A stretch of 64,000 bases of DNA from assembly GCF_011045115.1 (NCBI RefSeq), contig NZ_JAAKZG010000005.1, positions 186,001 to 250,000 on the forward strand, written 5' to 3'. Under the pieces are notes generated by a model. The model saw nothing but the letters and a program-made list of their open reading frames with translations. It did no database searches and was not told the DNA's origin. Source of the DNA: Mesorhizobium zhangyense (lineage in GTDB: Bacteria; Pseudomonadota; Alphaproteobacteria; Rhizobiales; Rhizobiaceae). Below are positions 2,190 to 46,441 of the stretch, piece by piece. Both the position numbers and the translations under genes were made by a program. The first letter of the stretch is position 1. The number at the start of each line of letters is the position of its first letter.

Positions 2190-4191
<2,002 letters not shown>

Positions 4192-4226
4192 CAAAGAACC
4201 GGACAGCAGTTTGATGTTTATGCCTT

Positions 4227-4393
4227 ACGTTGCCCCCCTCTGTCCTGCCGGACATCTCCCCCACAGGTGGGGAGATCAGGCCGTCATTAAGGCTTCCGCC
4301 AATCTCCTGCATTGCAGAAGGGGGACCGGCATCGCCACTGCTAATCTCCCCACCTGTGGGGGAGATGTCCGGCAGGACAGAGGGGGGCAACGT
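4227..4393. repeat. Perfect 50-bp inverted repeat, MITE-like or palindromic intergenic element
   Basis: Bases 4227-4276 and 4344-4393 are exact reverse complements over 50 bases, enclosing a 67-base spacer. Each arm contains its own smaller palindrome (CTCCCCCACAGGTGGGGAG). The element fills most of the obgE-proB gap. Arms of this kind (GTCCTGCCGGACATCTCCCCC) resemble intergenic repeats I remember from Mesorhizobium genomes. There is no transposase inside. It could form a long stem in a read-through transcript. Confidence 0.9.
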
Positions 4394-4437
4394 AGAGCAC
4401 AAACCTGGGCATCTAAGTACGCCTCTGGGATTTCGAC

Positions 4438-5589
4438 ATGACCTCGCATTCCCTGAAAAAATACCGGCGCATCACGGTGAAAATCGGCTCGGCCTTGCTG
4501 GTCGACCGCTCGGCCGGGTTGAAGCGCGACTGGCTGGCTTCGATCGCTGATGACATCGCTGTGCTTGCGGCAGGTGGGGCTGAGGTGCTGGTGGTGTCTT
4601 CCGGCGCCATTGCCCTCGGCCGCACCGTGCTCGGCCTCGGCAAGCGGGTGCTGAAGCTGGAGGAAAGCCAGGCATGTGCCGCCGTCGGCCAGATCGCGCT
4701 TGCCGGCGCGTGGTCGGACGAGCTTGGGCGCAACGGGCTCAAATCCGGGCAGGTGTTGGTGACGCTCGGCGACACCGAGGAGCGCCGGCGCTATCTCAAC
4801 GCGCGCGCGACCATTTCGACGCTGCTCAAGATGAAGGCGGTGCCGGTCATCAACGAGAACGACACGGTGGCGACCTCCGAAATCCGCTATGGCGACAACG
4901 ACCGTCTGGCCGCCCGCGTGGCGACGATGATGGGCGCGGACCTGCTGATCCTGCTGTCCGATATCGATGGTCTCTACACCGCGCCGCCGGCGCTCGATCC
5001 CGCAGCAAAATTCATTCCGCTGGTCGAACGCATCACACCCGACATCGAGGCAATGGCAGGGGCTGCGGCCTCGGAGCTGTCGCGCGGCGGCATGCGTACG
5101 AAGCTTGATGCCGGCAAGATCGCGACCGCGGCGGGCACGGCGATGATCATCACCTCCGGCACGCGGCTGAACCCGCTCAGCGCCATCGAGCGCGGCGAGC
5201 GTGCCACCTTCTTCAAGCCCAGCGCCAACCCGGTGAAGGGCTACAAGACCTGGATTGCGGGCCAGCTCGAGCCGGCTGGCCGGCTGACGGTCGATGCCGG
5301 CGCGGTCGGCGCGCTGCTTTCGGGCAAGTCGCTGCTGCCGGCAGGCGTCAGGAACGTCAGCGGCAACTTTTCGCGGGGCGACACGGTTGCGATCGTCAGC
5401 CCGGAGGGCCGGGAGATTGCGCGTGGCCTAATTGCCTATGACGCCGCCGATGCCGTAAGGATCGCTGGGCTGAAGACGAATGAAATTGCCGCCGTGCTTG
5501 GCTATGAAGGACGGTCGGCTATGATCCATCGCGACGATCTGGTGGTGAGCCATTCGGGCATGATGGAAACGGTGCAGGCGGAAGGATGA
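4438..5589 (+). CDS. proB: Glutamate 5-kinase
   Basis: The 383-residue product catalyses ATP-dependent phosphorylation of glutamate, the first step of proline synthesis. The amino-acid kinase domain (~1-270) shows KIGSALLV (nucleotide site), [19 protein letters not shown] and [12 protein letters not shown]-terminal PUA domain (~290-370) begins around [10 protein letters not shown], as in bacterial ProB of about 370 residues. It is followed three bases later by proA, so the two are translationally linked. In this family proline feedback acts through the kinase domain. Confidence 0.97.
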
Positions 5590-6879: not shown

Positions 6880-6894
6880 GCAAGCTTGCGTCTT

Positions 6895-7098
6895 ACCCTC
6901 CCCCTTGCGGGGAGGGTCGGCGAACCAATGCCGCGAAGCGGCATTTGCGAGCCGGGGTGGGGGTGGAGACGATGTGCTCCATTCCGACCTGACAGTGCCG
7001 GTTTCACCACCCCCACCCCGCTCCGCTACGCGGATCGACTCGCCAGGGCGAGCCGCGGGTCTCGCCCGTCCTTCGGACCCCCGCAAGGGGGAGGGTGA
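6895..7098. repeat. Nested inverted-repeat element between proA and nadD
   Basis: The outer arms near 6895-6917 and 7077-7098 share ACCCTCCCCCTTGCGGG in inverted orientation. Inner arms at 6953-6966 and 7007-7020 (CGGGGTGGGGGTGG and its exact complement) sit inside. This is the same architectural class as the elements at 4227, 19932 and 46301: G/C-rich, palindromic, intergenic and without coding capacity. Confidence 0.75.
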
Positions 7099-7123
7099 GA
7101 GCGTCGCGTCCCATTATCTCCGT

Positions 7124-7714
7124 ATGCCGCATGTCGAGAAGGGCATGCAGGTCGGCCTGTTCGGCGGCTCGTTCAATCCGCCCCATGGCGGTCATGCGTT
7201 GGTTGCCGAAATCGCGCTGCGGCGGCTGCGGCTCGACCAGCTTTGGTGGATGGTGACGCCGGGCAACCCGCTGAAAAGTTCGCGCATGCAGGCCCCGCTG
7301 GCCGAGCGCATCGGCCTTTCGGAGAAGATCGCCAAGGACCCGCGCATAAAAGTCACCGCCTTCGAGGCGGCGCATCATGTGCGCTACACCGCCGATACGC
7401 TGGCACTGATCAAGGCGCGCAATCCGGGCGTCGATTTCGTCTGGATCATGGGCGCCGACAATCTGCGCGATTTTCACCGCTGGCAGCGCTGGCGACAGAT
7501 CGTCATGACTTTTCCAATCGCGGTGATCGACCGGCCTGGCGCGACCCTGTCGTTCCTGTCGTCGGCGGTGGCCAAGACCTTCGACTATGCCCGCGTCGAC
7601 GAGGCGGATGCGCCGCGTCTGGCGCGCATGAAGGCGCCGGCCTGGACCTTCATCCATGGCCCGCGCTCGTCGCTGTCGTCCACAGCCATCCGCAAGGCGA
7701 ATGGCGGCGGCTGA
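7124..7714 (+). CDS. nadD: Nicotinate-nucleotide adenylyltransferase
   Basis: The frame is open from 6905, but that stretch is the intergenic repeat. The ATG at 7124 gives MPHVEKGMQVGLFGGSFNPPHGGH and a 196-residue protein of normal length. GGSFNPPHGGH is the nucleotidyltransferase signature; WIMGADNLRDFHRW and the C-terminal SSLSSTAIRK (the ISSTxIR motif) confirm NadD. The enzyme makes nicotinate adenine dinucleotide from NaMN and ATP in NAD synthesis. proBA-nadD-rsfS-rlmH is a familiar rhizobial order, here interrupted by a convergent mscS gene. Confidence 0.95.
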   Translation: MPHVEKGMQVGLFGGSFNPPHGGHALVAEIALRRLRLDQLWWMVTPGNPLKSSRMQAPLAERIGLSEKIAKDPRIKVTAFEAAHHVRYTADTLALIKARNPGVDFVWIMGADNLRDFHRWQRWRQIVMTFPIAVIDRPGATLSFLSSAVAKTFDYARVDEADAPRLARMKAPAWTFIHGPRSSLSSTAIRKANGGG

Positions 7715-19896: not shown

Positions 19897-19931
19897 TTGT
19901 TTGTGGGCGCGCGCGGGGTTGGCGATTGGCG

Positions 19932-20117
19932 TTTCCTCGCCCCTACGAAGTGGGGGAGAGGTGGCTCGGGCGAAGCCCGAGACGGAGAGGGGGATCTCGT
20001 TGATCTCGGCAACCCCGATATGATCGACGCCCCTCCGCCAGCCTACCGCGCTTCATCCTCCCCCTATCCGGTTTGCTTCGCAAACCACCTCTCCCCCGCA
20101 AGAGCGGGGGCGAGGAA
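19932..20117. repeat. Inverted-repeat intergenic element upstream of the hydroxyproline regulator 3' end
   Basis: TTTCCTCGCCCC...GGGGGAGAGGTGG (19932-19964) is complementary, with a few mismatches, to 20085-20117. Smaller palindromes (CTCGGGCGAAGCCCGAG, GGTTTGCTTCGCAAACC) lie inside. With the preceding elements it fills the 438-base gap between mmsA and the GntR gene; no gene is visible in that gap. Confidence 0.75.
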
Positions 20118-20137
20118 CCGCAGCTTCGGCGTAGGAA

Positions 20138-46256: not shown

Positions 46257-46300
46257 GGCGTTGTCCTTCGTTGTTGTCGTGCGTGCGTTGAAACTGCCTG

Positions 46301-46430
46301 CTTCTCCCCGTCCCTATACGGGGAGAAGATGCCGGCAGGCAGATGAGGGGCGGAGCCAGCTTTTTCGGCTTTGGTGCTGCCCTCATCCGACCCTTCGGGC
46401 CACCTTCTCCCCGTGAACGGGGAGAAGGAA
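46301..46430. repeat. Inverted palindromic repeat pair upstream of the patatin gene
   Basis: CTTCTCCCCGTCCCTATACGGGGAGAAG (28 bases, described as two halves: CTTCTCCCCG and CGGGGAGAAG) at 46301-46328 and a related palindrome at 46404-46427 bracket GGCAGATGAGGGG and GCCCTCATCC, which are complementary. A single unit of the same palindrome occurs at 18023. The element fills the 185-base gap between bdhA and the patatin gene. Confidence 0.75.
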
Positions 46431-46441
46431 GAATCGCGCTG

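Follow-up and report, generated by a model that had tools for sequence, protein, structure and literature searches.

The window, the 64,000-nucleotide stretch of Mesorhizobium zhangyense DNA that was analysed, carries a palindromic element in the spacer between obgE and proB (Table 1). The names of these two genes, and of proA and nadD considered below, were taken from the initial annotation or assigned by eye, without a family search. That annotation had drawn attention to a perfect inverted repeat in the spacer, and this is confirmed; the arms are exact reverse complements of each other over 51 bp, one base longer than had been noted, and they enclose a centre of 67 bases. When mismatches are allowed the arms extend to positions 4216-4279 and 4341-4404, 64 nt each, with 94% complementarity. 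With gaps of up to 200 allowed, none of 20 first-order Markov versions of the window contained a perfect inverted repeat longer than 16 bp, as opposed to the 51 bp observed.

Table 1. Features at the obgE-proB locus, in window coordinates
Feature	Position	Strand	Basis and remarks
obgE, upstream gene	3097..4191	+	Reading frame, GC3-based gene call
Whole element between obgE and proB	4216..4404		64-nt arms; conservation (54 arms, 27 copies) fades at weakly conserved ends
Left arm, perfect part	4226..4276	+	51 bp, reverse complement of 4344-4394
Outer G-run, left arm	4233..4238	-	Conserved across copies
hp2, left arm	4242..4253		GTCC GGCA GGAC on the - strand; second pair T-A, G-C or C-G across copies
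hp1, left arm	4254..4276		8-bp stem ATCTCCCC/GGGGAGAT, 7-nt loop; single-arm folding, pairing counts
Centre	4277..4343		67 bases; orientation varies among copies
Right arm, perfect part	4344..4394	+	51 bp, reverse complement of 4226-4276
hp1, right arm	4344..4366		Single-arm folding, pairing counts
hp2, right arm	4367..4378		GTCC GGCA GGAC; second pair T-A, G-C or C-G across copies
Outer G-run, right arm	4382..4387	+	Conserved across copies
End motif type A, CAACGTAGAGCAC	4388..4400	+	Left end 4220-4232 likewise type A
proB, downstream gene	4438..5589	+	Reading frame, GC3-based gene call; 80 relatives by tblastn

Each arm comprises two hairpins, hp1 and hp2, and an outer G-run, and the two arms face outwards around a centre of approximately 58 nt. 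The hp1 stem of 8 bp has A-T first pairs (ATCTCCCC/GGGGAGAT). Its 3′ flank in 50 arms is GGCC, GTCC or GCCC, all of which form part of hp2, and the 5′ flank is mostly GCTG or GCTA. Two types of end, occurring in several combinations, lie beyond the G-run; type A contains GTAG, and type B (CGCGAAGGAACGC), seen in other copies, does not. These outer ends are the least conserved portion of the arms. A strand of the whole element folds into a long arm-arm stem (z -14.5), and isolated arms fold into the two hairpins with a stability that is not above that of shuffled sequences (z -0.57 to -0.78). At the gathering score Rfam identifies nothing in the window except a tRNA, sub-threshold microRNA matches are taken as chance, and a scan for promoters and terminators was uninformative about the element.

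A blast search of the source genome with the element gives 77 matches, many of which are one copy read on both strands. A covariance model of the single arm (61 nt, built from 54 arms of 27 copies) finds at least 91 arm matches at E values up to 0.1, and we caution that these derive from 150 of 6174 candidates scored in a first look so that the counts are possibly low. Within a distance of 400 nt the arms form at least 38 pairs, 37 outward-facing and one inward-facing, and among the matches listed the spacing between the arm models is 57-59 nt in 35 of the 38. The element is a repeat of approximately 190 bp, of which the genome holds at least 35 evenly spaced copies, and the proposal in the initial annotation of a repeated, non-autonomous intergenic element, here numbering several dozen copies, is borne out. 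Fifteen arms among the matches listed are unpaired, only one of them high-scoring (C12:343949); they lie far apart, and there is no widely spaced arm pair among the matches from those 150 of 6174 candidates. Over the 27 copies the arms are nearly invariant and the centres variable. Identity of the two arms had been put forward as a possible sign of a recent copy, a reading that is not supported, as the two arms match at 641 out of 648 hairpin positions in the 27 copies although the centres differ.

Similar elements had also been reported at 6895, 19932 and 46301. These are real imperfect inverted repeats but belong to different sequence families; the arm model gives no match up to E 1 at the first two and scores weakly near the third, at 46297 (16.6 bits, E 0.027). 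The repeat at 6885-7105, which occupies the proA-nadD spacer, is represented by 24 genome matches, its own among them and most of them partial, and this other palindromic family also fills the proA-nadD spacer of Pseudaminobacter salicylatoxidans and M. ciceri WSM1271. At 19929-20121 the inverted repeat is imperfect, with arms of 13-15 nt, and apparently represents another family. The repeat at 46290-46440 is of like layout, with the hairpin CTTCTCCCCGT/ACGGGGAGAAGG, the sequences CCGGCAGG and GATGAGGGG and G-runs that face inwards; its 65 genome matches count its own locus and, at some sites, both strands, and many are of one unit of approximately 58 nt. In locus L113 a further repeat of approximately 125 bp (7273-7400) has many matches in the congener G001 and in G052 and G016.

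At E values of 1e-8 or below, arm matches are present in 31 of 61 sampled genomes of the family, the source genome counted in, and in 154 records of a plasmid collection, mostly Sinorhizobium (66) and Rhizobium (58). Among the relatives found by tblastn, which possibly do not include the record of the window itself, the window ProB is closest to that of P. salicylatoxidans (92%), then to Mesorhizobium. None of 80 named ProB relatives has an arm match up to E 0.1 in the obgE-proB spacer. The gap between the two genes in 79 of the 80 ranges from -4 to 84 bp, and 77 of these gaps are 11 bp or less; for the eightieth, L292, a gap of -4 was set by hand from the match start at 566. G001 lacks the element and has 7 nt between the two genes. 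The window spacer is 246 bp long, with 57 bp outside the element. A check of the site in relatives had been suggested at the outset, and it shows that the copy at obgE-proB was gained in this lineage. Part of the extra flank in the window may be older than the insertion, since P. salicylatoxidans has its 84-bp gap with no arm in it.

The proA-nadD spacer allows comparisons between species. At least 33 of the 80 relatives' loci have an arm there scoring 40 bits or above and 15 others have weaker matches only, counts for which some arms were possibly missed as the loci end shortly past the spacer. We aligned 27 of the 33 loci, each with two usable arms, and excluded six. The pairing test used 50 arms, excluding four right arms (L282, L289, L269 and L235, from four Mesorhizobium genomes) that have a common 15-nt insertion within hp2. 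Standard pairs make up 98.8% of hp1 and hp2 positions compared with 95.4% in shuffles, cells altered on both sides of hairpin pairs number 26 compared with 7.0, and the covariation score is 0.127 compared with 0.056; none of 500 shuffles reaches any of these values. Sliding the hairpins as a control lowers pairing to 34-66%. At proA-nadD the number of pairs changed on both sides is not above shuffles (65 of 500 reach it), and likewise the number of further pair types (266 of 500). Arms of the source genome display the same excess over shuffles and slid controls in pairing, both-sided change and covariation, and in them pairs changed on both sides and pair types are each reached by 500 of 500 shuffles. 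The covariation signal rests mainly on one hp2 pair, which at proA-nadD is C-G (20), T-A (19) or G-C (5).

Related sequences can exceed shuffles without any structure, and a comparison of this hp2 pair within and between arms is therefore the better test. The variable pair was compared in 22 Mesorhizobium copies at proA-nadD (of 23 given, L252 not being fitted). Of their 44 arms, 41 have a Watson-Crick pair there and one more has a wobble, and the two arms of a copy agree at it in six cases and disagree in 16. In Mesorhizobium the arms stay paired internally after they have ceased to be identical to each other. The feature that tends to be kept in related species is the two small hairpins of each arm rather than the long mirror image, and the perfect 51-bp match at obgE-proB is probably incidental, given that the hp2 pair is kept within arms though the arms disagree between themselves. 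Selection on structure, which the initial annotation had raised, finds support in part, for the two small hairpins per arm, and not for a long arm-arm stem.

Mean pairwise identity over the 22 copies is 0.914 and 0.926 for the arms, 0.663 for the centre, and 0.729 and 0.724 for the flanks; the values for comparison are 0.549 when one of the centres is shuffled and 0.889 for proB (20 pairs). Distances in the centre, left flank and right flank track proB distance (Spearman 0.45, 0.51 and 0.25; Mantel p 0.001, 0.001 and 0.027, respectively), as expected for descent of the proA-nadD copies. Arm distances in 23 copies show no such tracking (Spearman 0.09 and 0.07; Mantel p 0.219 and 0.298).

The centre can be inverted. 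Among seven copies at the hut site the centres of N6212 and TAL182 fit that of Rhizobium sp. N731 better inverted (0.78 and 0.80 as opposed to 0.58), and the remaining four fit it in the forward direction (0.76-0.83 as opposed to 0.58-0.61). At proA-nadD the centre of L252 is clearly inverted and those of L280 and L237 are ambiguous. Unlike ends are found in 14 of 32 scored copies of the source genome, with the centre one way in nine and the other way in five. Recombination or template switching between the arms would account for inversion of the centre and keep the arms alike.

Arms also get lost, which counts against strong constraint. Of eight G001 loci tested for arm loss, three have flanks that match a fetched copy of the source genome; the right arm is replaced or broken by a module in L049 and L041, and one arm is left in L050. 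A module close to GGGTCGAGCCGCGGGTCTCGACCCGTCCTTCGGA lies inside the arms of some Rhizobium and G001 copies and, with small changes, also occurs in the window near 7050. The palindromic repeats that carry such a module are mosaics. The occupant of a given spacer varies as well. The hutG-hutH spacer holds the element in Rhizobium sp. N731, another palindromic repeat in R. sophoriradicis and a version lacking the left arm in R. lentis, and the two genes are 1 nt apart in NZLR1 and R. johnstonii 3841. Three G001 sites contain, respectively, approximately 24 unrelated nt (nearly empty), a different palindromic family of like layout, and unrelated sequence, and no target duplication was found at these three. 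The phn site of S. meliloti was considered as an insertion polymorphism and set aside; the alignment reveals a deletion between two hp1 hairpins, one of which remains, and no insertion site. In Rm41 and AK21 (L197, L201 and L202) approximately 180 bp are missing between the two hp1 hairpins at 99.7% identity, and different hp1 loops are retained, indicative of palindrome-mediated deletion.

The gene pairs around 24 classified copies of the source genome are tandem in 15 cases, convergent in eight and divergent in one, which sits in a 607-nt gap. The 130 control gaps divide into 73, 24 and 33. The depletion of divergent spacers (1/24 against 33/130, two-sided p 0.029) places the element beside gene 3′ ends, the location by which REP/BIME repeats are recognized; the counts depend on a home-made gene caller, with three of 27 copies unclassified and with controls drawn from the same stretches, some copies included. 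The convergent excess by itself is not significant (p 0.107). Imperfect pairs at proA-nadD, read on the sense strand, are G-U in 10 cases, A-C in three and other in two (one-sided p 0.046, the cases not being independent and four right arms not being fitted); leaving out L252 the G-U to A-C count is 6 to 2. Gene context and the G-U excess lean towards a transcribed element and neither is proof, so that an RNA reading would rest on weak signs. Transcription of S. meliloti REP elements is reported in PMC2873474, and we do not equate those REPs with the obgE-proB element.

We consider the element likely to belong to the REP/BIME kind of repeat, palindromic, non-autonomous and dispersed between genes, with double hairpin plus G-run units inverted around a variable centre of approximately 58 nt. 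Short hairpin units present in many copies and paired in opposite orientation are what defines REP/BIME repeats broadly, and the element consists of such units. The observations behind this assignment are the multi-copy state, the gain at obgE-proB, within-arm pairing that outlasts arm identity in Mesorhizobium, and the turnover and inversion of the centre. Following insertion the hairpins may be kept as tolerated or useful in intergenic mRNA, where, by analogy with proposals for REPs, they might protect ends or take part in processing by RNase. The likeness of the arms would be maintained by inversion or by template switching between them, and the enzyme responsible for dispersal may act in trans or have been lost.

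How does the element compare with known systems? REPINs, associated with RAYTs, have two inverted conserved hairpin units flanking a variable insert. The element shares the inverted pair of hairpin units around a variable insert, but no RAYT was found. RIME1 and RIME2 (Rhizobium-specific intergenic mosaic elements) are 108-109 bp in length and occur in the chvI-chvG spacer; the element resembles them in being intergenic, palindromic, mosaic and present in Rhizobiaceae. In an S. meliloti record the chvI-chvG spacer is occupied by other palindromes, which we take to be RIMEs, and membership of RIME1/RIME2 by sequence was rejected because the arm model finds nothing at this locus. One of the records, L176 (CP090106.1), titled S. 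meliloti Ak57 pSymB, is 3.72 Mb long, carries both chvI and chvG and looks like a mislabelled chromosome.

REP/BIME repeats include the CGTC-tagged alphaproteobacterial REPs described in PMC3733652. These share with the element short, oppositely oriented hairpins with stems of 8-9 bp and A-T first pairs, an intergenic position between tandem or convergent genes, and the lack of a dedicated transposase. The differences are that the element has no CGTC, TGTC or CCTC tag beside hp1 (50 arms), and that each unit combines a double hairpin and a G-run, arranged around a centre of fixed length. The intergenic repeats of S. meliloti named in PMC2573895 and PMC1525189 include the Sm-repeats, the AB and C palindromes and REPs, and PMC2267715 describes Bru-RS of Brucella, an intergenic palindromic family of 103-105 bp; our comparison with all of these, like the element intergenic and in the case of Bru-RS likewise palindromic, is by description rather than by sequence. 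One S. meliloti replicon carries 18 arm matches. Within the literature searches made, no title or abstract opening describes the element. It would best be filed as a REP/BIME-like non-autonomous intergenic repeat, possibly overlapping the S. meliloti repeats.

Several other explanations merit consideration. The copies could be neutral debris, the hairpins of which look conserved as a result of template switching during replication that repairs quasi-palindromes. Strand switching is evident from centre inversion and module exchange, arm variants do not track phylogeny, some copies have lost arms, and compensatory changes could come from template-switch repair. Against this, the arm sequence at proA-nadD is, beyond pairing alone, more alike than the flanks and approximately as alike as proB, and we hold the explanation to be doubtful. 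It is conceivable, though we put it forward tentatively, that some spacers act as permanent sites for a module required by the host in RNA processing or at mRNA ends, where unrelated palindromic families take one another's place, the arms being host-selected, interchangeable cassettes with an invertible centre rather than selfish debris.

A MITE, derived by deletion from a DDE insertion sequence that bears long terminal inverted repeats and moved by a transposase elsewhere in the genome, would be compatible with the fixed length, inverted ends, many copies and presence or absence among relatives. The outer ends are, however, less conserved than any other part of the arms and of two types, arm pairs face inwards at some places, and unpaired arms of the source genome lie far apart among the matches listed. 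A target-site duplication, the lack of which the initial annotation had counted among the signs against its reading, was looked for across the 27 copies (lengths 2-9, 23 x 23 offsets) and none was found, with no excess over permuted pairings. We regard a MITE as unlikely. Selection for the 51-bp arm-arm duplex itself, as double-stranded RNA for RNase III or as a cruciform, is in keeping with the folding of the strand into this duplex and with the almost full agreement of arms in the source genome, yet the Mesorhizobium arms mostly disagree at an hp2 pair that is maintained internally, making a functional long stem distinctly improbable. Least credible is mobilization of the element, as a REPIN, by a RAYT (Y1 tyrosine transposase). 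The two inverted hairpin units, variable insert, intergenic position and the GTAG of type A ends would suit it, but GTAG is missing from type B ends, the source genome gives no match to PF01797, six of 61 family genomes do, and no arms lie beside those six loci.

Repeats of the REP/BIME kind favoured here are commonly set aside as annotation noise. The orthologous proA-nadD copies let hypotheses that concern pairing within arms be distinguished from those that concern pairing between arms. The copy at obgE-proB separates two genes that lie almost end to end in most of the relatives examined and so provides a natural test of the role of such a repeat inside a gene cluster.
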